Below, piece after piece: positions 5,116 to 15,915 of a stretch of 64,000 nt of DNA (position 1 is its first letter; every line of letters starts with the position of its first letter). The notes below the pieces were generated by a model. The model ran no database searches and was not told where the DNA came from. It saw only the letters and a program-made list of their open reading frames with translations. A program made the position numbers and the translations under genes. The stretch covers positions 1 to 64,000 of the forward strand of contig NZ_JACVXA010000010.1 in the NCBI RefSeq assembly GCF_014903745.1, read 5' to 3'. The stretch comes from Mangrovicoccus algicola (GTDB taxonomy: Bacteria > Pseudomonadota > Alphaproteobacteria > Rhodobacterales > Rhodobacteraceae).

Positions 5116-6288
5116 ATGTCGCTCGGCGAGGTCCTCGATACCGGCCATGTCGACGGCAGCTATCGCCGCCGGGCCCTGGGGCGCGCGCGCTGGACGATCC
5201 GGCTGATCTTCGCCACCGTCGCCATCGCGATCGGCTGGGCGGCGGTCGCGCAGATCGACGAGGTGACGCGCGGCGACGGGCGCGTCATCCCGGTCCGGCG
5301 CATGCAGACGATCCAGAGCCTGGAGGGCGGCATCCTGTCGGAGCTGATGGTGCAGGAGGGCGAGGTCGTCGCCGCAGGGCAGAGCCTGGCCCGGCTGGAT
5401 CCGACGCGGTCGCGATCGGCCTTCCTGGCGGCGCAGGGCGAGATCGCGACCCTGACCGCCGAGGTGGCGCGGCTGGAGGCGGAGGTGCTGGAGCAGCCGG
5501 TGCTGGATTTCGGGGCGGATCCCAGCGCGACGGAGGCTACCGAGCTGCGCCTGTTCACCGCGCGGCGCACCAAGCTGGAGGCCTCCCTGGCGGCGCTGGA
5601 ATCCGAGAAGGACGCCATCGCCCAGCAGATCGCCATCACCGCCCCCCTGGCCGAAGGCGGCTCGGTCAGCCGCATCGACGTGCTGGAACTGCGCCAGAAA
5701 CTGGCCGCCCTGGACGGCAAGATCGGCGAGACGCGCAATGCCTATGTGCAGGACGCCTATCGCGACCTGGCCGAGCGCCGCGCCAGGCTGGCGACCCTGG
5801 AGCAGGAGCTGGTGCAGAAGCAGGACGAGTTCGAGCGAACCGAGATCCGCTCGCCCGTGGCGGGACGGGTCAACGATATCGACATCACCACGCTGGGCGG
5901 CGTCGTGCAGCCCGGCGAGCAGATCATGGAGATCACCCCCATCGACGACCAGCTGATGATCGAGACGCGGATCCTGCCGCGCGACGTGGCCTTCATCGCC
6001 CCCGAGATGCCCGCCAGCGTGAAGATCACCGCCTATGACTTCTCCACCTATGGCGACCTGCGCGGCACGGTGGTGCAGATTTCCGAGGACACAGTGGAGG
6101 AGGAAACCCCCCAGGGCCCGCAGGATTTCTACCAGGTCATGGTGCGCACCGAGGCAAGCTATCTGGAACGCTTCGGCCAGCAATACGCGATCCGTCCCGG
6201 CATGATCGCCCAGGTCGACATCGAAAGCGGCAAGCGCTCGGTGCTGAGCTACCTGACCCGGCCGCTGCTGCGCGCGCGGCTGCGCTGA
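5116..6288 (+). CDS. HlyD-family periplasmic adaptor of type I secretion
   Basis: A 390-residue membrane-fusion protein. One N-terminal transmembrane helix (about residues 30-50) is followed by a biotinyl-lipoyl-like half motif (IQSLEGGILSELMVQEGEVV), a long coiled-coil hairpin (about 110-240) and the returning lipoyl half with the RSPVAGRVNDIDI segment. The C-terminal part is the usual beta-barrel region ending in a basic tail. It bridges the inner-membrane ABC exporter and the outer-membrane channel. It starts one base after the exporter stop, so all the secretion genes read as one transcription unit. Confidence 0.92.
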   Translation: MSLGEVLDTGHVDGSYRRRALGRARWTIRLIFATVAIAIGWAAVAQIDEVTRGDGRVIPVRRMQTIQSLEGGILSELMVQEGEVVAAGQSLARLDPTRSRSAFLAAQGEIATLTAEVARLEAEVLEQPVLDFGADPSATEATELRLFTARRTKLEASLAALESEKDAIAQQIAITAPLAEGGSVSRIDVLELRQKLAALDGKIGETRNAYVQDAYRDLAERRARLATLEQELVQKQDEFERTEIRSPVAGRVNDIDITTLGGVVQPGEQIMEITPIDDQLMIETRILPRDVAFIAPEMPASVKITAYDFSTYGDLRGTVVQISEDTVEEETPQGPQDFYQVMVRTEASYLERFGQQYAIRPGMIAQVDIESGKRSVLSYLTRPLLRARLR

Positions 6289-6311
6289 ACAAGACAGATG
6301 GTGTCCCCTCC

Positions 6312-7625
6312 TTGAAACTTCCCTTCCCGAACGCCCCGTCCGCGACCGCCGCCATGGCGCTGCTGCTGTCCGGCCTGCTATCCGCCCCGGCCGCGGCGCG
6401 GGTCTATGACCGCGTCGAGGTGCGCGGCGCCCAGTTCGTGCCCGAGCGCGATATCCGCCTGACCTGCGGGGCCGCGGCCGGGATCGACTATTTCGATGCG
6501 GAGCTGCGCGCCATCGAGGAATGCCTGATGTCCACCGGGGTTTTCGACGCCGTGCGGCTGTTCTCCGAGGCGGACACGCTGGTGATCGAGGTGGAGGAAA
6601 CCGACCTGCGCCCGGGCCGGGTGGAGGGGTCCGTCATGTATGACAGCCAGGACGAGGTGACGCTGGGGTTCTCCTTCGAACGCTACAACCTGTTTCCCGG
6701 CACGTTCGGCGCCTTCCATGTCGATATCGCCCGGCAGGCGCGGCGGCTGGATGCCGGGCTGTATCGCAGCGACGCCTTCGGCGAGACCCTGGATGCCGGG
6801 CTGGACCTGGCGGGCTACCGCACGGAATACGACGATCTGGCCTATCACGGCGAGAGCCTGCGCGGCGCGCCCTTACTGGCCTGGACCCCCTCGGAGGATC
6901 TGCGCATCGAGGCCGGGGCGGGGTGGCGGCGCCACCGCATGAGCGGGGTGGAGACGGATGCCAGCGCGCTGCTGCGGCAGGAGGCGGGGACGGTCTCGGC
7001 GCCCTATCTGCGGCTGGGGCTGGATTACGCGCCGCGCGGCGATGCCGACGAGGCGGGGGACGACGGGCGCCCCGCGCCGGCCGTGGTGCTGGGCCTCGAC
7101 CAGTACCTGTGGAACCTGGGCCATGACGCGGCCCTGTCGGAGACGCGGCTGCGGGCGGATGCGCAGATGGCCCTGGGCGGGGCGATGCGGCTCCTGGCGG
7201 GGCTGGGGGCCGGACGGGTCCAGGGTCTGACCGGCCGGGCCACCCGCGCCGTCGACCGGTTCCATCCCGGCGCCGACACGTTCCGCGGCTTCGCCCCGCG
7301 CGGGATCGGTCCGCGCGACCGGGGCGATGCGCTGGGGGCCAACAGCTATGTCATCGCCTCGCTGGAGCTGCAGCGCGAGATCGCCGAGATCCGCCGCCAC
7401 GATCTGCGCGCGGGGGTGTTCACCGATATCGGCTCGGCCTGGGATCTCGACGACACGCTGGGCGGGCGGATCGACGATGCCGCGCATCTGCGCGCGACGC
7501 TGGGCCTGTCGCTGGCCATGGACCTGGACGGCACGCCCGCCTCGCTGTATCTCGCGCGGCCGGTGCTGGACGAGCCGGGCGATCGCGGCCAGGTCTTCGG
7601 GCTGAGCGTCAGCCTGGCCTTCTGA
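6312..7625 (+). CDS. Omp85-like (BamA/TamA-type) outer membrane barrel protein
   Basis: A 437-residue protein. With the TTG at 6312 it has a plausible signal peptide ending at APAAA near residue 29; the ATG at 6354 would leave a very short one. No good Shine-Dalgarno sequence marks either start. Residues about 30-90 look like one POTRA-type domain (VYDRVEVRGAQFVPERDI, then VIEVEE). The rest alternates polar and hydrophobic strands and ends LSVSLAF with a terminal Phe, typical of barrels folded by the Bam machine. RGFAPRGIGPRD near residue 320 resembles the conserved RGF/Y element of Omp85 barrels. It follows the HlyD gene by 23 bases. Its role with a type I exporter is unclear. Confidence 0.72.
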   Translation: MKLPFPNAPSATAAMALLLSGLLSAPAAARVYDRVEVRGAQFVPERDIRLTCGAAAGIDYFDAELRAIEECLMSTGVFDAVRLFSEADTLVIEVEETDLRPGRVEGSVMYDSQDEVTLGFSFERYNLFPGTFGAFHVDIARQARRLDAGLYRSDAFGETLDAGLDLAGYRTEYDDLAYHGESLRGAPLLAWTPSEDLRIEAGAGWRRHRMSGVETDASALLRQEAGTVSAPYLRLGLDYAPRGDADEAGDDGRPAPAVVLGLDQYLWNLGHDAALSETRLRADAQMALGGAMRLLAGLGAGRVQGLTGRATRAVDRFHPGADTFRGFAPRGIGPRDRGDALGANSYVIASLELQREIAEIRRHDLRAGVFTDIGSAWDLDDTLGGRIDDAAHLRATLGLSLAMDLDGTPASLYLARPVLDEPGDRGQVFGLSVSLAF

Positions 7626-7634
7626 GCGCCGGGA

Positions 7635-8369
7635 TCAGCGCAGCAGCCGCCGCGCCAGCCGCAGCGACAGCGCGTAGGGCATCGCCCGCAGCAGTTTCAG
7701 CGGCAGCGTCAGCCGGCGCGGGAAATGGATCTCGAAACCGCGCCGGTCCAGCCCCGCCGCGATGCGCGCCGCCGCCGCCTCGGGCGTCATCAGCCCCGGC
7801 ATCTCGAAATCGTTCTTCTGCGTCAGGCGGGTATCGACGAAGCCCGGGCAGATCAGCCGGACATCCGCGCGCCCGTGCAGCTCCGTGCGCAGGGTCTCGG
7901 CCAGGTTGATCACCCCGGCCTTGGTCGCCGAATAGACCTGGCCCTGCGGCAGGCCCAGATAGCCCGCCACCGAGCCGGTCAGCGCCAGCTGCCCGCCCGG
8001 GCGCAGCAGGGGAACCGCGGTCTGCGCGAAGACCAGGCTGCCCGCCAGGTTGGTCGCCACGATCCGCGCCGCGCGCGCCGCGTCCAACTCCATCGCCCGG
8101 CCGGGATCGTAGAGCGCCGCCAGCGTCACCGCCCGGTCCAGCGGGCCTCCCGCGGCGATGCGTCCTGCGGCGTCGGCCATCGCGGCGGGATCCGCGGTAT
8201 CGGCCGCGACCAGCTCGGCGCCGCCGATCTCCGCGGCCAGGCTCTCCAGCCGGTCGGACGAGCGCGCCGACAGCACCAGGCGCGCGCCGCGTCCCGCCCA
8301 GACCCGTGCCAGGGCCGCCCCGATCCCGTCGGAGGCGCCCATGATCCAGATGCGTTCGGCCTCAGGCAT
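7635..8369 (-). CDS. Short-chain dehydrogenase/reductase
   Basis: A classical SDR of 244 residues from the ATG at 8369; an upstream in-frame ATG at 8393 would add eight residues and a longer overlap with the preceding gene. The N-terminal GASDGIGAALA motif binds NAD(P), and YSATKAG supplies the catalytic Tyr and Lys. The ATG overlaps the stop of the cyclopropane synthase-like gene, so it is the last member of the minus-strand lipid cluster. SDRs of this kind accompany CFA synthase, DUF1365 and COG2907 oxidoreductase genes in many proteobacteria. The substrate is unknown; a role in fatty-acid modification is inferred from context. Confidence 0.85.
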   Translation of the reverse strand: MPEAERIWIMGASDGIGAALARVWAGRGARLVLSARSSDRLESLAAEIGGAELVAADTADPAAMADAAGRIAAGGPLDRAVTLAALYDPGRAMELDAARAARIVATNLAGSLVFAQTAVPLLRPGGQLALTGSVAGYLGLPQGQVYSATKAGVINLAETLRTELHGRADVRLICPGFVDTRLTQKNDFEMPGLMTPEAAAARIAAGLDRRGFEIHFPRRLTLPLKLLRAMPYALSLRLARRLLR

Positions 8370-9519
8370 GGGCCAGCCGGTACTGGTAGACATCGCAGCG
8401 CCCGGTCTCGAAGGCGGCGAGGCAGGCGGCCAGGTAGAACCGCCAGACCCGGATGAACCCCTCGTCGAAGCCCTGCGCGCGGATGTCGGAGAGGCGCGTC
8501 TCGAAGGCGGTCAGCCAGTCCTTCAGCGTGCGCGCGTAATCGGGTCCGAAGGCAAAGCTGTCCTCGATCCGCATCCCGCCCTTCGCGGCCTCCTCGGCAA
8601 AGCGCGCGGGGCTGGGCAGCATGCCGCCGGGAAAGATGAAGCTGCGGATCATGTCGCCGCCCCTGCGGTAGCGCGCGAAATAGCGGTCGCCGACGGTGAT
8701 CGTCTGGACCATCGCGCGGCCCTTGCGGGCCAGGACCTCGGAGAGCTTGCCGAAATAGACCGGCCAGAACCTCTCGCCCACCGCCTCGAACATCTCGATC
8801 GACACGACATGGTCATAGCGGCCCCTTTCGTCGCGATAGTCCTGAAGCGCGATCTCGGCGCCGCCGCCCAGCCGCGTGCGGGCGAAGGCGGCCTGTTCGC
8901 GCGACAGGGTCAGGCCCCTGGGGGCGAAATCGCCGCGTTCCAGCGCACGTTCGGCGAAGCCGCCCCAGCCGCAGCCGATCTCCAGCAACCGCCCCGAGCG
9001 CGCCTCCAGCCCGTCGAGGATGCGGTCGTACTTGCGGTGCTGGGCGGCCCTCAGGTCGTCGCCGGGACCGTAGAGCGCGGCGGAATAGGTCATCGTCTCG
9101 TCCAGCCACAGCCGGTAGAAGGCGTTGCCCAGGTCGTAATGCGCCGCGATGTTGCGCCGCGACCCGGCGCGGGTGTTGCGGTTCAGCAGGTAGAGCGCGC
9201 GCAGCGCCAGCGCCTGCAGCGGATGGCCGTAGATCAAACCCTCCAGCGCCTCCTCGTTGGCCAGCCCGAAACGCAGCAGTTCCGTCAGGTCGGGCGTGTC
9301 GACCCAGCCGTCGCGATAGGCCTCGGTCAGCCCGATATCCCCCCGGGCCGCCATCGCCGGGACGGCGCGCCAGTCGCGGATGGCGATCGCCGCCGCCGGG
9401 CCGGGCAGGGGGCCTGCGAAATCGCGGACCCGCCCGTCGGGCGCCGTCACCTGCAGGCTTCCGCAGCGGACCTTGTCGAGCAGCCTGAACAGCCGCGTCT
9501 CGATCTGTCTTTCCAGCAT
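8362..9519 (-). CDS. cfa: Cyclopropane-fatty-acyl-phospholipid synthase-like methyltransferase
   Basis: 385 residues from the ATG at 9519, which has an AGAAGGGA ribosome-binding sequence. The C-terminal two thirds are the SAM-dependent mycolic acid/CFA synthase fold with LLEIGCGWGGFAERAL as SAM-binding motif I and the family segments HYDLGNAFYRLWLDETMTYS and VSIEMFEAVGERFW. Known members transfer a methylene or methyl group from SAM to a cis double bond of membrane phospholipid acyl chains. The run DUF1365-CFA-SDR together with a divergent sigma factor is a recognised stress-linked lipid cluster, so the product may be a cyclopropane or another methylated acyl chain. Confidence 0.88.
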   Translation of the reverse strand: MLERQIETRLFRLLDKVRCGSLQVTAPDGRVRDFAGPLPGPAAAIAIRDWRAVPAMAARGDIGLTEAYRDGWVDTPDLTELLRFGLANEEALEGLIYGHPLQALALRALYLLNRNTRAGSRRNIAAHYDLGNAFYRLWLDETMTYSAALYGPGDDLRAAQHRKYDRILDGLEARSGRLLEIGCGWGGFAERALERGDFAPRGLTLSREQAAFARTRLGGGAEIALQDYRDERGRYDHVVSIEMFEAVGERFWPVYFGKLSEVLARKGRAMVQTITVGDRYFARYRRGGDMIRSFIFPGGMLPSPARFAEEAAKGGMRIEDSFAFGPDYARTLKDWLTAFETRLSDIRAQGFDEGFIRVWRFYLAACLAAFETGRCDVYQYRLAHA

Positions 9520-9530
9520 CACGATCCCTT

Positions 9531-10307
9531 CTATGATCGGTCTTCCGCGCCCGACAGCCTGCAGGGCAGCTGGGCGGGTTTGGAATGGAAGGGCAGGCCG
9601 CGCAGGTAGATCCGCGCCGCCTGCCAGTGGATCAGCGCCATGATCCGCTGCGCCTGCAGCGGATGGGCCATCGCGGCGCGGCGCAGCCGGGCGGCGCTCA
9701 GCGGGGCCGCCTGCCCGGTCAGGGAAGTGCCCAGCCGGATCTCGCCCGAGGGTCCGGTCCAGTCGATCCAGGCCCCGAACCGCCCCGGCCCGGCATCGAA
9801 GCGGAACACGTAATGGCCCGTGCGCGGCAGGAAGGGCGAGACATGGAACAGCTTTTCGCCGCGGATCCGGCAGGATGGGGTGACGGGGGCCAGGTCGGGA
9901 TGGCGGATCAGGTAGAAATGATGTTCGCCGAAGGTATTGGACACCTCGGCCAGCACCGCGCGCAGATGGCCGCCCTGCCGCGCCAGCCAGAAACTGACCG
10001 GGTTGAACCCGTAGCCCGATGTGCGCGGCGTGGTGACAAGGGCGACCTCGGCCGCCTCCAGCCCCAAGGGCGCCAGCCGGGCGCGGATGAACCCCTGCAG
10101 ATCCGTGCCGTCGCGCGCCCCGTGATCGCGCCTGCGGATCCGCCACAGGCCGGGACGGTCGGGGCGCAGCGGCAGCATGCCCGCCTCGAACGCCGCAAGG
10201 GGCAGCGCGAGATAGGCCGCGCGGTAGCGGAAGCTGCGGGCCGCATCGCCGGACCGCGCATGCCAGACCCGCCCGCCGATCAGCGCGCCCTGCCACAGGT
10301 CGCTCAT
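9531..10307 (-). CDS. DUF1365 family protein
   Basis: 258 residues from the ATG at 10307. The protein carries DUF1365 hallmarks: an N-terminal HARSGDAARSFRYRAAYL segment, SGYGFNPVSFWL near the middle and FGEHHFYLIRH. The biochemical function of the family is not established; it almost always sits beside a COG2907 FAD oxidoreductase and a CFA-like methyltransferase, as here, which points to a role in lipid modification. Its ATG overlaps the stop of the oxidoreductase gene by four bases, and 11 bases separate it from the methyltransferase. Confidence 0.88.
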   Translation of the reverse strand: MSDLWQGALIGGRVWHARSGDAARSFRYRAAYLALPLAAFEAGMLPLRPDRPGLWRIRRRDHGARDGTDLQGFIRARLAPLGLEAAEVALVTTPRTSGYGFNPVSFWLARQGGHLRAVLAEVSNTFGEHHFYLIRHPDLAPVTPSCRIRGEKLFHVSPFLPRTGHYVFRFDAGPGRFGAWIDWTGPSGEIRLGTSLTGQAAPLSAARLRRAAMAHPLQAQRIMALIHWQAARIYLRGLPFHSKPAQLPCRLSGAEDRS

Positions 10308-11614
10308 GCCGGGATGCTTTCGCGCAGCGCCTCGCGGGGCAGGCGCGGCTCGTCGGGCCAGGGATCGGCGCTCAGCGGCCAGTCGACCCCCAGCGCCTGC
10401 GCCACCCGCAGCGCGGACAGCAGCCCGTCCTCGTGGAAGCCATAGCGCGTCCAGGCCCCGGCATGATAGACGCCGCCGCGCCCCTGGATGGCGCGCAGCC
10501 GCCATTGCGCGGCGATGGCGGCGGCGTCGAATTGCGGATGGGCCAGCATCGCCTCGTCATGGATTTGGCGCGGCTCGCGCTCGGGGTTGAGCGTGACGAT
10601 CATGCTGCGCGGCGTCGCGAGCGGCTGCAGCCGGTTCATCCAGTAGCTCAGGCTCAGCGGGCGGTCATCGGCGGCGGCGGGCCGGTCGGTGACGTAGTTC
10701 CAGCTGGACCGGATGCGCCGCCGCCGCGGCAGGAAGCTTTCGTCGGAATGCAGCACCATGCGGTTGGGGGCCGTGCGCATCGTTCGCAATATGGCCGTCT
10801 CCTCCGCATCGGGCGCGTCCAGCAGTGCCAGGGTCTGCGGCGCATGGGTGGCGAAGATGACCCGGTCGAATCGCTCGCGCCCGCGCGGCGACAGGATCTC
10901 GATGCCCCGGGGCGTGCGCCCCACCCGGCGCACCGGGCAGTCCAGCCGCAGATCCGCGGGGGTGGCCGCCAGAAGCGCCCGCACATAGGCCGCCGCGCCG
11001 CCCCGCACCGTCAGCCATTGCGGCTGGCCATTGACCGAGAGAAGCCCGTGATTGTCGAAGAAGCGCAGGAAGGCGGCGGCGGGAAATTCCGCCATTCCCG
11101 CGGTCGGCGTCGACCAGATCGCCCCCGAGATCGGCAGCAGGAACCGGTCGCGGAATTCCGGACCCAGCCCCAGCTCGGCGATCAGCTCGCCGATGCTGCC
11201 GGAGGCCCCGGCATGACGCGGCGCCAGCCGGAAGAAGCGCAGGATGTCGCGGATCATCCGCCAGTGGGAAAGATCGGCCAGCCGCGCGGGCTGGGCCAGC
11301 ATGTCCATGGGCCGAGTCGTGCCGTATTCCAGCGCTCCGCCGCCGAAACTGGCGGCGAAGCTCATGTCGCTGGGCGCCAGGTCCACGCCCAGATGCTCCA
11401 GCAGCGGCACGAACAGGGGATAGGTGCGGCGGTTGCAGACGATGAACCCGGTATCGACCGCGACACCCTCGACCGTGGCGGTGCGGGCATGGCCGCCGGG
11501 GCGGGGCTCGGCCTCGAAGATCGTCACCTCGTGATGCGGGGCCAGGAGCCAGGCGGCCCCCAGCCCGGAAATGCCGCTGCCGATGATGGCGATCTTCGCT
11601 CTTCCGGTTGTCAC
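10304..11614 (-). CDS. FAD-dependent amine-oxidase-like oxidoreductase (COG2907 type)
   Basis: 436 residues from the GTG at 11614; a TTG at 11632 would add six. The dinucleotide-binding GSGISGLGAAWLL lies directly at the N-terminus, followed by the FAD motif EAEPRPGGHARTATVEG and VDTGFIVCN, the layout of desaturase/amine-oxidase-like flavoproteins grouped with DUF1365 and CFA synthases. It is probably a desaturase or oxidase acting on a membrane lipid. It is the first gene of the four-gene minus-strand operon, and a predicted ECF promoter lies about 35 bases upstream of its start, opposite to the sigma factor gene. Confidence 0.85.
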   Translation of the reverse strand: MTTGRAKIAIIGSGISGLGAAWLLAPHHEVTIFEAEPRPGGHARTATVEGVAVDTGFIVCNRRTYPLFVPLLEHLGVDLAPSDMSFAASFGGGALEYGTTRPMDMLAQPARLADLSHWRMIRDILRFFRLAPRHAGASGSIGELIAELGLGPEFRDRFLLPISGAIWSTPTAGMAEFPAAAFLRFFDNHGLLSVNGQPQWLTVRGGAAAYVRALLAATPADLRLDCPVRRVGRTPRGIEILSPRGRERFDRVIFATHAPQTLALLDAPDAEETAILRTMRTAPNRMVLHSDESFLPRRRRIRSSWNYVTDRPAAADDRPLSLSYWMNRLQPLATPRSMIVTLNPEREPRQIHDEAMLAHPQFDAAAIAAQWRLRAIQGRGGVYHAGAWTRYGFHEDGLLSALRVAQALGVDWPLSADPWPDEPRLPREALRESIPA

Positions 11615-11648
11615 GTCGGCCCCGCTCTGCAATGGTCATTCCCGAAGC

Positions 11649-11675
11649 AGACGCCCCGGCCCTGCGGAAAGTTGC
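11649..11675 (-). promoter_or_regulatory. Predicted ECF-sigma promoter for the lipid operon
   Basis: Read on the minus strand, GCAACT (11675-11670) is followed after 16 bases by CGTCT (11653-11649). The AAC core at -35 and CGTC at -10 are the classic signature of ECF-sigma promoters. It faces the FAD oxidoreductase gene and is divergent to the ECF sigma gene at 11710, its likely reader. Confidence 0.55.
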
Positions 11676-11709
11676 AGGCGGGGGCAAAAAAACGGCGGCG
11701 CACGGGCGG

Positions 11710-12261
11710 ATGGCAGGTCAGGACAGCGAGCTTTCGGAACTGATCGCGCGGGTCGTGCTGCGCGACAGGCAGGCCTTTCTCGATCTGTACTCCGCCAGCG
11801 CGCCGAAACTTTTCGCGATCACGCTGCGTCTTCTGAAGGACCGCGCCGAGGCGGAGGATGTCCTGCAGGAGGTATTCGTGAAGATCTGGAACAATGCCGA
11901 CCGCTACCTGCCCGACGTGGCAAGCCCCGCCGCCTGGCTGAACGCGGTGGCGCGCAATGCCGCGATCGACCGGCTGCGGGCGCGCAGGCCCGCGGCGCGC
12001 TCCGAGGGGCTGGATGCCGCGGAACGCCTTGCCGATCCCGGTCCGGGGCCCGAGGCGGAGGCGATCCTGCGTTCCGAGGGACGGCGGATCGAGACTTGCA
12101 TGGAGGAGCTGCCGAGCGACCGGGCCGAGGCCGTGCGCCGCGCCTATGTCGAAGGCGAGAGCTATCTGGAACTGGCCGAACGCTATGCGGTGCCGCTGAA
12201 CACCATGCGCAGCTGGCTGCGCCGCAGCCTGATCCAGCTGCGCGCCTGTCTGTCCGCATGA
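11710..12261 (+). CDS. ECF-family RNA polymerase sigma factor
   Basis: 183 residues from the ATG at 11710; an ATG at 11632 would add 26 poorly conserved residues. Region 2 is seen in EAEDVLQEVFVKIWNNADRY and the following PAAWLNAVARNAAIDRLRAR; region 4 is the helix-turn-helix ending LNTMRSWLRRSLIQLRACL. It has the length of a minimal sigma2-sigma4 factor. It overlaps the anti-sigma gene by four bases, the usual arrangement for co-translation with a cognate inhibitor. The adjacent divergent lipid operon carries a matching ECF promoter, so it probably controls that operon under envelope or oxidative stress. Confidence 0.92.
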   Translation: MAGQDSELSELIARVVLRDRQAFLDLYSASAPKLFAITLRLLKDRAEAEDVLQEVFVKIWNNADRYLPDVASPAAWLNAVARNAAIDRLRARRPAARSEGLDAAERLADPGPGPEAEAILRSEGRRIETCMEELPSDRAEAVRRAYVEGESYLELAERYAVPLNTMRSWLRRSLIQLRACLSA

Positions 12262-12950
12262 CCGGCCCCGGCGATCCCCCCACCGACGAGGATGTCGCGC
12301 TGGCCGGCGAATACGTGCTGGGCGCGCTGGCGCTGGAAGACCGCCAGGCGGCGGCGCTGCGCATCGCCCGCGACCCGGGCTTCGCGCTGGAAGTGGCCCG
12401 CTGGGAGGCGCGGCTGGATCCGCTGGCCGAAGAGGTCCGCCCGGTGACCCCGCCCGCAAGGCTGCGGCGCCGGATCGAGGCAAGGGTCTTCGGCGCGCCG
12501 CGGCAGGCGCGGCCCTGGTCCTGGCTGGTCGGGGCAGGCGGGCTGGCCGCGGCGAGCCTGGCCGCGACCCTGTGGCTGGGCCAGCCGCAGCCGCCTGCGC
12601 CGGGGCAGGGCGGCGAAGGCCTGTGGATTTCCGACATGGTCTCGCCGGACGGCACGGTGCGCCTTGCCGCGCTCTATGACGCCGATAGCGGCGAGATGCG
12701 CGTCTCGGTCGGCGGGGCGGCCCCGGCGACGGGACGCGATTTCGAACTGTGGCTGATCCAGGGCGAGGCGGCGCCGATCTCGCTGGGGGTGATGCCGCAT
12801 CAGGGGCAGGCGGCGATGCCGATCCCCGAGGATCTGCGCCCGCTGGTGGCGGAGGCGACGCTGGCGATCACCGACGAACCCGAGGGCGGATCGCCCGGCG
12901 GGGTGGCCACGGGACCGGTCGTCGCCGCCGCGCCGCTGCGCCGCATCTGA
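12258..12950 (+). CDS. RskA-type anti-sigma factor
   Basis: 230 residues starting in an ATGA overlap with the sigma gene. The N-terminal 90 residues (EYVLGALALEDRQAAALRIA...) form the short helical sigma-binding module found in RskA-like proteins without the zinc motif. One transmembrane helix lies at about 95-115 (SWLVGAGGLAAASLAATLWL). The C-terminal periplasmic domain carries family marks FELWLIQGEAAPISLGVMP and EPEGGSPGG. It should hold the sigma factor at the inner membrane until a signal triggers proteolysis. It differs from the zinc-binding ChrR anti-sigma factor of Rhodobacter singlet-oxygen regulons. Confidence 0.88.
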   Translation: MTGPGDPPTDEDVALAGEYVLGALALEDRQAAALRIARDPGFALEVARWEARLDPLAEEVRPVTPPARLRRRIEARVFGAPRQARPWSWLVGAGGLAAASLAATLWLGQPQPPAPGQGGEGLWISDMVSPDGTVRLAALYDADSGEMRVSVGGAAPATGRDFELWLIQGEAAPISLGVMPHQGQAAMPIPEDLRPLVAEATLAITDEPEGGSPGGVATGPVVAAAPLRRI

Positions 12951-13041: not shown

Positions 13042-14268
13042 ATGGAGAGGATCGATCTGGCGGAACGCCCCGGATGGCGCGACCTGGCGCGCGAGCAGGG
13101 GTTTTCCTTTTCCGAGATGCATGGCGAACCCTATTGGGACGAAAGCTCGGCCTACCGCTTCACGCTGGAGGAGATCGAGACCGGCATCGAGGACCCCGCG
13201 ACCGAGCTGCACGGCATGTGCCGCGAGGCGGTGGCGAAGGTGCTGGACAGCGAGGAGCTGATGACGCGGCTGGGCATCGCGCCCGCGCGGATGGACCTTC
13301 TGCGCGACAGCTGGCAGCTGGGCCAGCCGGAGCTTTACGGCCGGATGGATTTCGCCCATGACGGGCAGGGTCCGGCGAAGCTGCTGGAATACAATGCCGA
13401 CACCCCCACCTCGCTTTACGAAAGCGCGGCCTTCCAGTGGCAGTGGCTGGAGGACCAGGTTGCCGCGGGCGTGCTGCCCGAGGGGGCCGACCAGTTCAAC
13501 GGCCTGCACGAGGCGCTGGTGGCGCGGTTCGGCGCGCTTTTCCCGCCGGGAACGAACCTGCATTTCACCGCCGCCACCGACAATGCCGAGGATTATGCCA
13601 CCGTCGAGGCAATGGGCTATGCCGCGCGCGAGGCGGGGCTGGGGGCGCATTACGTCGATCTGGGCCAGGTCGGGGTCAGCGCGGAGGGCGGTTTCGTCGA
13701 TGACGAGGACCGGCTGATGCGGGTGCTGTTCAAGCTCTACCCCTGGGAGGACCTGCTGCAGGACGAGTTCGCCGGGCATATCGCCGCCTCGGGCTGCCTG
13801 TTCCTGGAACCGCCCTGGAAGGCGATCCTGTCGAACAAGGGCATCCTGCCGGTCCTGTGGGAGATGTTCGAGGGCCATCCCAACCTGCTCCCGGCCTTCT
13901 TCGAGGCGGATGTCGCCGAGGCGCTGGCGGGACGCGGAGGCCCCGCGGCCGGGGCGGCGGCGCGGTTCGAGCGCGCCGAGACGGCGCTGCGCCGCGGCCA
14001 TGTGAGCAAGCCCATCTTCTCGCGCGAAGGCGCGGGGGTCATCATCCGCGAGGCCGGCGAGATCGTCGAGGCGGCGGAAAACGGCGAATACGACGCGCAT
14101 CCGCGCATCGTGCAGGCCTATCATCCGCTGCCGCAATTCGGCGGCGTCCGCCCGGTCCTGGGCGCCTGGATCGTCGGAGAGGCCTGTGTCGGGCTCGGCC
14201 TGCGCGAGGACCGGTCGCGCATCACCCAGGACCTCTCGCGGTTCAAGCCGCATTACATCGAGGATTGA
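13042..14268 (+). CDS. Glutathionylspermidine synthase family protein (YgiC/YjfC-like)
   Basis: 408 residues with ATP-grasp-type synthetase features shared with the C-terminal half of glutathionylspermidine synthase: the GQPELYGRMDFAHDG and LLEYNADTPTSLYESA motifs bind nucleotide and metal, and NLHFTAATDNAEDYATVE follows. There is no N-terminal amidase domain, so it belongs to the stand-alone YgiC/YjfC group, whose substrate is uncertain. It lies 11 bases before a DUF1190 lipoprotein gene, mirroring the E. coli ygiB-ygiC pair in inverted order. It may ligate a peptide or polyamine in the cytoplasm. Confidence 0.88.
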   Translation: MERIDLAERPGWRDLAREQGFSFSEMHGEPYWDESSAYRFTLEEIETGIEDPATELHGMCREAVAKVLDSEELMTRLGIAPARMDLLRDSWQLGQPELYGRMDFAHDGQGPAKLLEYNADTPTSLYESAAFQWQWLEDQVAAGVLPEGADQFNGLHEALVARFGALFPPGTNLHFTAATDNAEDYATVEAMGYAAREAGLGAHYVDLGQVGVSAEGGFVDDEDRLMRVLFKLYPWEDLLQDEFAGHIAASGCLFLEPPWKAILSNKGILPVLWEMFEGHPNLLPAFFEADVAEALAGRGGPAAGAAARFERAETALRRGHVSKPIFSREGAGVIIREAGEIVEAAENGEYDAHPRIVQAYHPLPQFGGVRPVLGAWIVGEACVGLGLREDRSRITQDLSRFKPHYIED

Positions 14269-14899: not shown

Positions 14900-14923
14900 G
14901 GCCGGGACGCTCAGCCCCCGGCC
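14900..14923. terminator. Hairpin between convergent genes
   Basis: GGCCGGG at 14900-14906 pairs with CCCGGCC at 14917-14923 around a 10-base loop. It overlaps the stop end of the AraC gene and follows the DUF1190 stop by eight bases. There is no U-run; a smaller GGGGG-TGAT-CCCCC stem-loop lies just before. Probably a shared terminator. Confidence 0.4.
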
Positions 14924-15915
14924 AGGGCCCGCCGCAGCGTGACCGAGGGCGTCTCGCCGTAGACGCCGCGGTAGAATCCCGAGAACCGCCCGAGATGGTA
15001 GAAGCCGTGATCCATCGCGATGCGGGTCACGCTGGTCTCGGGGGCGGGGCTGACCAGCGCCTCGCGGGCGAAGGCCAGGCGGCGCCGCGCCAGATAGGCA
15101 TGGGCGGACATGCCGGTGCGGCGCTTGACGATGGTCTCGATCGTGCGCAGTGCCAGCCCGGTCCCCTCGCACAGCTCCTGCAGCCCGATCGGGTCGTTGC
15201 GCGCCTCGTCGATCTGCCGCTCGATCCGGGCCATGGACAGCGTCTGCAGCCGCGTGGCCAGGTGATCGCTTTTCACGTCGCTGCCGGCAACCGTGTCGAC
15301 GATGGCGGCGATCAGGCTGCGCCGCAGCACGGCCAGGTCGCGCATTTCCAGCGCGGGTTGCCGGATCACCCGGCCCAGCCTTCCGATCTCCAGGCGCAGC
15401 CGCTGCAGCCGCGGGGCCTCCACCGCCCGCAACCGGCCCGGCATCTGCAGAAGCCGGTCATGTTCCTCCCCTGTCAGCGCCGCGCTGGCGCGCCGCAGCA
15501 GGTCAGAGACCAGCACGATCGCCGCCAGTTCCGTCTCGCCATAGGTTCGCAGATGCGGCGTGTCGCCCGGCAGGCGCGTGACGACGGTGCATCCGCTCAT
15601 CTCGCGGCCGTCAAGCACGGCGCGCGGCGCGGGATCCATCGGCAGCAGCAGGATGATGGAGCGCGCCGAGCCGGTGAATTCCGCCCGCATGCTGACCGGC
15701 GGCCCGGTGCGGATTCGCCGCGACACCAGCCCCGCGGAAAGCGCGCCCAGCTCCATGCTGGCGCGAAAGGGGGCATTGTCCATCGGCAGGATCCCGAATC
15801 GCCCGCCGGGAATCGCCGAGGAAAAGGCGCCCGGATCGGAGAATTCGAGGAAGGACGACCGCATGGCGGCTGGTGCGGCCGTCCCGGCAGGCGGCAGATC
15901 GTGTTGCGAAATCAT
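14911..15915 (-). CDS. AraC-family transcriptional regulator
   Basis: 334 residues. The C-terminal about 100 residues hold the paired helix-turn-helix of AraC/XylS proteins (LCEGTGLALRTIETIVKRRTG, then VTRIAMDHGFYHLGRFSGFYRGVYGETPS). The N-terminal two thirds resemble the AraC-binding-like domain of regulators responding to small metabolites, but no ligand can be predicted. It faces an AT-richer spacer of over 500 bases before the first Hint gene, so its targets may include that promoter region or distant genes. Confidence 0.88.
   Translation of the reverse strand: MISQHDLPPAGTAAPAAMRSSFLEFSDPGAFSSAIPGGRFGILPMDNAPFRASMELGALSAGLVSRRIRTGPPVSMRAEFTGSARSIILLLPMDPAPRAVLDGREMSGCTVVTRLPGDTPHLRTYGETELAAIVLVSDLLRRASAALTGEEHDRLLQMPGRLRAVEAPRLQRLRLEIGRLGRVIRQPALEMRDLAVLRRSLIAAIVDTVAGSDVKSDHLATRLQTLSMARIERQIDEARNDPIGLQELCEGTGLALRTIETIVKRRTGMSAHAYLARRRLAFAREALVSPAPETSVTRIAMDHGFYHLGRFSGFYRGVYGETPSVTLRRALAGG

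Follow-up and report, generated by a model that had tools for sequence, protein, structure and literature searches.

A SigK-RskA-type sigma/anti-sigma pair divergent from a predicted furan fatty acid operon in Mangrovicoccus algicola

RESULTS AND DISCUSSION

A SigK-RskA-type pair beside the lipid operon

How does an operon for membrane lipid modification come to lie beside a regulator of another family than the one that accompanies it in related bacteria, and which signal does that regulator convey? The question is raised by a 64,000-nucleotide stretch of Mangrovicoccus algicola (positions 1 to 64,000 of contig NZ_JACVXA010000010.1, assembly GCF_014903745.1; hereafter, the window), in which genes resembling those of furan fatty acid (Ufa) synthesis are divergent from a pair encoding an extracytoplasmic function (ECF) sigma factor and an RskA-type anti-sigma factor. 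We consider it likely that a SigK-RskA module (ECF18/19), joined to a UfaD-UfaO-CFA-SDR operon, replaces here the RpoE-ChrR-linked ufa locus, with a probable photooxidative signal. The locus is genuine and well conserved but belongs to a kind already known: the pair had been described before, and its linkage to lipid genes is widespread. The features concerned are as follows.

7635..8393, minus strand: SDR-family oxidoreductase, final gene of the lipid operon (PF00106, 1.4e-31)
8362..9519, minus strand: cyclopropane fatty acid (CFA)/CMAS-family methyltransferase, candidate UfaM or CFA synthase (PF02353, 3.1e-70)
9531..10307, minus strand: DUF1365 protein, UfaO-like (PF07103, 8.5e-59)
10304..11614, minus strand: FAD/NAD(P) oxidoreductase, UfaD-like, first gene of the operon (PF01593, 1.9e-27)
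11649..11675, minus strand (read 11675-11649): predicted SigK-type promoter GCAACT-N16-CGTCT upstream of UfaD (exact sequence, conserved footprint)
11710..12261, plus strand: ECF sigma factor of SigK type with cysteines C130 and C180 (PF04542, PF08281)
12258..12950, plus strand: RskA-type anti-sigma factor (PF10099 RskA_C, 65.2 bits, cut-off 29.4)

A preliminary description of this stretch, made from the sequence alone, had recognized the SDR-CFA-DUF1365-oxidoreductase group and labelled the oxidoreductase COG2907. Every one of the families listed above was backed by Pfam. Neighboring genes of the operon overlap or almost abut; the UfaD-like gene starts with GTG at 11614 or, alternatively, with TTG at 11632. 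By domains and order, the window brings together UfaD-, UfaO-, and methyltransferase-type genes, as expected of the Ufa pathway, and in most loci with the same type of UfaD an SDR gene likewise comes after the core. Papers are cited here by PMC identifier. According to PMC7380195, RSP_1091 (UfaD) and RSP_1090 (UfaO, a DUF1365 protein) are needed for furan fatty acid in Rhodobacter sphaeroides, and the Rhodopseudomonas palustris proteins are RPA2571 (UfaD), RPA2570 (UfaO), and RPA2569 (UfaM). Because of this requirement in R. sphaeroides, the window operon would be expected to yield furan acids or methylated ones; its methyltransferase may be either UfaM or CFA synthase.

The sigma and anti-sigma genes overlap, and the RskA-type identity proposed earlier for the latter was borne out by the RskA_C domain. 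Compared with solved structures, the sigma factor was closest to Mycobacterium tuberculosis SigK (4nqw, 6.1e-25), followed by R. sphaeroides RpoE (3.6e-15). A phylogeny of the sigma factor had been suggested as a check, and in a quick tree of 69 rows it grouped with 17 other ufa-, cryB-, or fasciclin-linked SigK rows (SH-aLRT, i.e., approximate likelihood ratio test, 90, unstarred), apart from the ECF11 rows, which formed their own branch (SH-aLRT 98); the branch of M. tuberculosis SigK is long and its exact placement in this tree unsure. C130 and C180, the only cysteines of the window sigma, align with the cysteine pair of M. tuberculosis SigK, which is reported to be redox-active and to occur in 94% of ECF18 and 56% of ECF19 members (PMC7509140). 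Of the SigK-type homologues that other genomes contributed to our alignment, 51 of 52 had both cysteines, vs none of 12 ECF11 rows.

The anti-sigma factor contains no cysteine, nor the HxxxCxxC motif that the ChrR reference has, and had no Pfam match to PF12973. Its highest 19-residue hydropathy (1.58, from residue 90) points to a possible membrane span at about residues 89 to 108. The RskA N-terminal domain PF22618 gave no match at 1e-3 in the window protein, nor in the anti-sigma factors of Paracoccus, Rhodobacter capsulatus, Caballeronia, and Salinisphaera; it scored over the cut-off in Tsukamurella and under it in Streptomyces. None of the solved structures matched the window RskA up to E=1, so its N-terminal part is without structural support, and by eye its segment LAGEYVLGAL resembles the AS19-1 helix-1 motif HTLAGAYALDAL (PMC7406223). 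Judged by sequence, the pair is of SigK-RskA type and not an ECF11 RpoE-ChrR pair: zinc motif and cupin are absent from the anti-sigma factor, and the sigma factor lies outside the ECF11 clade. We use the label ECF18/19 because PMC7509140 and PMC7406223 disagree on whether M. tuberculosis SigK-RskA is ECF18 or ECF19. A second RskA_C pair occurs elsewhere in the M. algicola genome (G000:C135:6176-7374, L157), with a sigma factor 32 to 33% identical to that of the window.

A separate UfaD lineage in genomes in which ChrR was not found

To place the locus within its family, we searched a sample of 149 genomes with cut-offs of E<=1e-40 for UfaD, E<=1e-8 for ChrR, and E<=1e-25 for the SigK-like sigma. 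UfaD was found in 123 genomes, ChrR in 116, RskA_C in 59, and the SigK-like sigma in 57. By comparison of the lists, 114 of the 123 UfaD genomes also have ChrR, in agreement with the earlier statement that these lipid genes are commonly tied to RpoE-ChrR in related bacteria. Read from coordinates, RskA_C within 10 kb of UfaD occurred in this sample only in the M. algicola genome itself, a count from which contig breaks could hide others.

A quick UfaD tree (97 rows, LG+G4) assigned the UfaD of the window to a 28-row lineage (23 distinct and 5 repeat fetches; SH-aLRT 100) with zero ChrR-linked rows, and a separate group, also with SH-aLRT 100, held 13 ChrR-linked Rhodobacterales rows, including the genus mates of M. 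algicola and Salipiger mucosus. Identities followed the same division: the window UfaD shares 44 to 46% identity with those of its genus mates vs 60 to 74% with those at Salipiger, Paracoccus, and Rhodobacter loci. A further 18 genomes with a window-type UfaD were examined, and all of them carried a SigK-like sigma (46 to 72% identical), in eight of them beside UfaD, and ChrR at 1e-8 was found in none of the 19 genomes when M. algicola is included. All three sister species of its own genus have ChrR and an ordinary UfaD. In these counts G088 and G153, apparently one genome, were counted once, and L029 (near-duplicate of L030) and L041 (short contig) were left aside. Seven of the 121 family genomes with another UfaD were also without ChrR, so that a missing ChrR is not diagnostic by itself. 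Within the M. algicola genome the window sigma found five other sigma places, at most 34% identical to family RpoE, in a search for which RpoE itself was not used as a query. Three Cupin_7 matches in this genome were set aside as ChrR candidates since their contigs differ from those of the sigma places; the sole stretch examined (L160) had no RpoE match.

The preliminary description had read the locus as a possible rewiring. Taken literally, this would mean that the ancestral ufa operon stayed and that only regulator and promoter were switched from RpoE-ChrR to an RskA-controlled sigma factor. The gene set is indeed similar to that of the RpoE-ChrR loci of the sister species, and the regulator occupies the same divergent position. 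Yet the two UfaD lineages separate with full support within one family, and the window UfaD is much closer to that of Salipiger, Paracoccus, and Rhodobacter loci than to that of its genus mates. On the UfaD tree we set in-place rewiring aside as very improbable. Since the UfaD is of a distinct lineage, ChrR was not found in the genome, and no close RpoE was seen among the sigma places, exchange of the whole module between genomes fits better and most likely explains the locus; a different UfaD lineage would have come with, or under, a different sigma/anti-sigma pair and promoter class. "Rewiring" is thus better worded as an exchange of regulator modules.

A conserved promoter footprint

GCAACT-N16-CGTCT, noted earlier before the oxidoreductase gene, is present there exactly. 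A relaxed form of the pattern had 8 matches in the 64-kb window, and the attempt to derive a genome-wide regulon failed, as GMAACTY-N14-16-CGTV gave 13 matches in the M. algicola genome vs 27 when the control pattern, its reverse, was used. Taken alone, the site thus lacks significance, which it gains through conservation at orthologous places. With the window excluded, GMAACY-N15-17-CGT was found upstream of 14 of the 23 window-type UfaD genes (expected, 0.3), 37 of 43 fasciclin genes (expected, 0.7), most of which adjoin SigK-RskA pairs, and 5 of 5 Rhodobacter-group TspO genes that adjoin the pair (expected, 0.1), vs 5 of 34 ChrR-linked UfaD genes (expected, 0.4) and 2 of 40 other UfaD genes (expected, 0.6). 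Before sigK itself it was present in 3 of 83 cases (1.0 expected), a weak excess at most, and an autoregulation motif was set aside.

For the RpoE class we used TGATCY as a mark, which we take to be the start of the RpoE promoter. It preceded 23 of 34 ChrR-linked UfaD genes (4.8 expected) and 10 of 40 other UfaD genes (4.7 expected), vs 1 of 23 in the window-type lineage (3.0 expected). For the most part, then, promoter class goes with the regulator.

In a first count with G[ACG]AAC[CTG]-N15-17-CGT, the motif was seen at 18 of 25 window-type UfaD genes (1.0 by expectation), 35 of 39 fasciclin genes (1.5), 6 of 71 other UfaD genes (2.9), and 2 of 70 sigK upstreams (2.4). The final count used the narrower pattern, took in loci obtained later, and left out the window, the same-genome duplicates L011, L156, L029, and L023, the repeat fetches L176-L184, L202, L203, and L213-L218, upstreams of <=120 bases, and identical upstreams. 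The UfaD count is partly circular because the motif was picked after reading UfaD upstreams; the pattern was already fixed when the upstreams of fasciclin, sigK, and ChrR-linked genes were first counted and when new loci were read, and the slight narrowing came afterwards.

It could be argued that the site is incidental and that transcription of the operon is constitutive or depends on some other sigma factor, as the pattern is not enriched genome-wide and 9 of the 23 lineage upstreams, all from Paracoccus, are without it. The conservation at 14 of 23 UfaD and 37 of 43 fasciclin genes, together with the presence of the motif in R. capsulatus and relatives, makes this improbable in our judgment.

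Fasciclin proteins are known SigK targets (MPT70/83; PMC9861118), and a fasciclin protein, RSP_1409, is listed in the R. sphaeroides RpoE regulon (PMC7074977). With fasciclin targets known in both, the SigK and RpoE systems share kinds of output.

The Rhodobacter capsulatus pair and the probable signal

The pair had been called new, a claim that did not hold. At locus L225 we found a sigma and an anti-sigma factor each 67% identical to their window counterparts, divergent from genes for TspO, glutathione peroxidase (GPX), and a CryB-type photolyase, near photosynthetic reaction-centre and DXP-synthase genes, and with GCAACC-N16-CGTC in the intergenic region. The sigma open reading frame (ORF) measures 546 bp with a StuI site at 377, and rcc00699 of R. 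capsulatus is given as 545 bp with StuI at 376 bp (PMC3999984); the layout is much like that described for the rcc00699/698 locus in PMC7074977. Because ORF size, StuI site, and gene setting match, L225 belongs to R. capsulatus or a very near relative. The rcc00699/698 pair, named RpoE/ChrR in R. capsulatus, has already been published as SigK/RskA-like and singlet-oxygen-induced, with log2 increases of 3.7 and 3.4 under photooxidative stress (PMC7074977), and the same paper asked whether it was remodelled or acquired. Earlier disruption of rcc00699 in this species could not be verified (PMC3999984). R. capsulatus shares with the window a 67% identical pair and the same motif in the divergent intergenic region and differs in what lies opposite the pair: TspO-GPX-CryB in place of UfaD-DUF1365-CFA-SDR, homologues of RSP_1091/1090 being absent according to PMC7074977. 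A second target of this kind in M. algicola was dropped, as a PF04244 search found no CryB-type photolyase in its genome.

From these comparisons the following sequence of events may be proposed. At rest, the sigma factor would be kept at the membrane by the N-terminal part of RskA, and under stress it would be released or activated through cleavage of RskA, the cysteine pair of the sigma factor, or both. Freed sigma would read GMAACY-N16-CGT promoters and turn on the divergent lipid operon, so that the lipid enzymes are made. The signal would most likely be photooxidative stress, in the form of singlet oxygen or of oxidized lipid products, as served by RpoE-ChrR but sensed otherwise. Since the sigma cysteines align with the SigK redox pair, a cytoplasmic redox input may persist, and since singlet oxygen induces the orthologue in R. 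capsulatus, the signal may be unchanged. The suggested shift from a cytoplasmic zinc sensor to envelope proteolysis is therefore not supported.

An alternative is that the pair answers an envelope signal that has nothing to do with photooxidative stress, such as membrane damage, through RskA proteolysis, with the lipid operon as a membrane-repair output. The anti-sigma factor is of RskA type, and Rip1 cleaves the RskA of M. tuberculosis (PMC7509140); the stimuli of SigK-RskA have been called obscure (PMC9861118), and a 2-aminoimidazole that raises envelope permeability induces SigK-regulated genes (PMC5547695). Nevertheless, the R. capsulatus orthologue is induced by singlet oxygen and lies beside GPX and CryB, genes for GPX, CryB-type photolyase, and TspO recur in SigK-type ufa loci, and light raises the expression of those Mycobacterium kansasii fasciclin genes that have predicted SigK sites (PMC9861118). 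We regard an envelope signal as unlikely, if still worth considering, and favor photooxidative stress. Taken as a whole, the preliminary reading keeps its replacement of RpoE-ChrR by a SigK/RskA-type pair, the absent zinc motif and cupin, and a distinct conserved promoter, and loses the newness of the pair, the rewiring, and the shift to proteolysis.

Distribution of the linkage and comparison with known systems

A scan of named genomes, limited to the 80 best among 525 candidates, yielded 20 loci whose UfaD is 60 to 74% identical to that of the window. Sigma and RskA genes adjoin in 8 of these: Salipiger pentaromativorans, S. aestuarii, Paracoccus isoporae, P. marinaquae, Sinirhodobacter sp., Rhodobacter maris, R. 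aestuarii, and Rhodobacter sp. TJ_12. The window sigma was matched in 11 of 18 genomes of the genus of R. aestuarii, a species whose own pair is divergent from UfaD-GPX-CryB. The pair was also linked to UfaD on two Paracoccus plasmids and in one further Rhodobacter-group genome; on a third Paracoccus plasmid the lipid genes were present and the pair was not in view. Further away, it occurred near UfaD in Caballeronia, Rhizobium lusitanum, and two of eight Salinisphaera loci and, among the Actinomycetota, in Tsukamurella and Streptomyces; a Rhodococcus plasmid had the lipid genes with no pair in view.

Near their SDR end, SigK-type ufa loci repeatedly hold one or more genes for TspO, GPX, CryB-type photolyase (DPRP), DUF2177, or MFS proteins (L031, L032, L035, L036, L038, L039, L042, L044, L045, and L046).

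Among known systems, the SigK-RskA pair (ECF18/ECF19) of M. tuberculosis and other Actinomycetota resembles that of the window in being its closest solved relative, in the aligned cysteine pair, and in RskA_C. The M. tuberculosis sigma is 31% identical to that of the window, whose pair has no adjoining fasciclin gene. In M. tuberculosis, sigK is subject to autoregulation through the Rv0449c promoter, and UfaA is encoded by Rv0447c (PMC7509140, PMC10956863). In Streptomyces, with the divergent layout of the window, and on Tsukamurella plasmids, an FAD oxidoreductase-DUF1365-CFA group lies beside genes annotated as sigK and anti-sigma. The sigK-rskA-fasciclin loci on Ruegeria, Mesorhizobium, and Sinorhizobium plasmids belong to the same sigma and anti-sigma families and carry GMAACY-N15-17-CGT before the fasciclin gene, but this gene is their neighbor and the lipid operon is not beside the pair. 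R. sphaeroides RpoE-ChrR differs from the window in its ECF11 sigma, zinc/cupin ChrR, TGATCY-class promoter, and other UfaD lineage; UfaM of this species (RSP_2144) lies outside the RSP_1091-1087 operon.

Weight of the evidence and significance

Several observations weigh against a SigK-RskA module that has replaced RpoE-ChrR and governs the operon. At the level of identity, the NCBIfam models all score under their cut-offs, for both the sigma factor (best PRK12514, 251 bits of 265; SigK model PRK09646, 137 of 226) and the anti-sigma factor (92.8 bits of 100). At the level of lineage, sigK is located elsewhere, not beside UfaD, in 10 of the 18 lineage genomes, the 19 genomes are related and hence not 19 independent events, and no donor for the exchange was identified. 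Regarding promoters, besides the missing genome-wide enrichment and the motif-free Paracoccus upstreams, the SigK-type motif also precedes 5 of 34 ChrR-linked UfaD genes (0.4 expected), a hint of dual control or of a -10 element common to both. TGATCY stands before 5 of 5 Rhodobacter-group TspO genes beside a SigK-RskA pair (L220 and L222-L225; 0.6 expected), by common descent or as a second promoter, and no motif is clearly enriched before sigK, a poor fit with the reported induction of rcc00699. The lack of CryB in the M. algicola genome is a further such point. Finally, since R. capsulatus has no homologues of RSP_1091/1090, its singlet-oxygen response cannot show that ufa genes obey a SigK-type pair. 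TGATCY before TspO and the search of the M. algicola genome without an RpoE query led us to lower our confidence in this module slightly.

For the question posed in PMC7074977 on R. capsulatus RpoE/ChrR, the comparison favors an acquired sigK-rskA-like locus over a remodelled RpoE-ChrR, because the R. capsulatus pair falls in a SigK-RskA clade with Paracoccus, Salipiger, and other Rhodobacter, several members of which link the pair to furan-lipid genes that R. capsulatus lacks. The locus also supplies a concrete candidate signal for SigK-RskA, as well as a testable promoter and genomes that naturally employ either sensor alongside similar genes. In the literature covered, which was partial, we found nothing linking SigK-RskA to ufa genes in Rhodobacteraceae or giving the window promoter, nor the promoter footprint, the one-or-other pattern with ChrR, or the placing of the R. 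capsulatus pair in a ufa-linked SigK clade.

A broader and tentative idea, which may well not hold, is that two unrelated sensors (the zinc/cupin ChrR and a redox-cysteine sigma with membrane RskA) compete for one photooxidative membrane-lipid response, each with its own UfaD lineage and promoter class and one per genome, and that SigK-RskA systems, including the mycobacterial ones, are light and singlet-oxygen responses at root. If true, SigK would gain the physiological signal that it lacks.

Neighboring genes

On the SDR side, the lipid operon is adjoined by an HlyD-type secretion gene and an Omp85-superfamily gene (5116-7625). Directly after the anti-sigma gene comes a gene of the glutathionylspermidine-synthase family (13042-14268, PF03738), followed on the opposite strand by a gene with an HTH_18 (AraC-type) domain (14911-15915).

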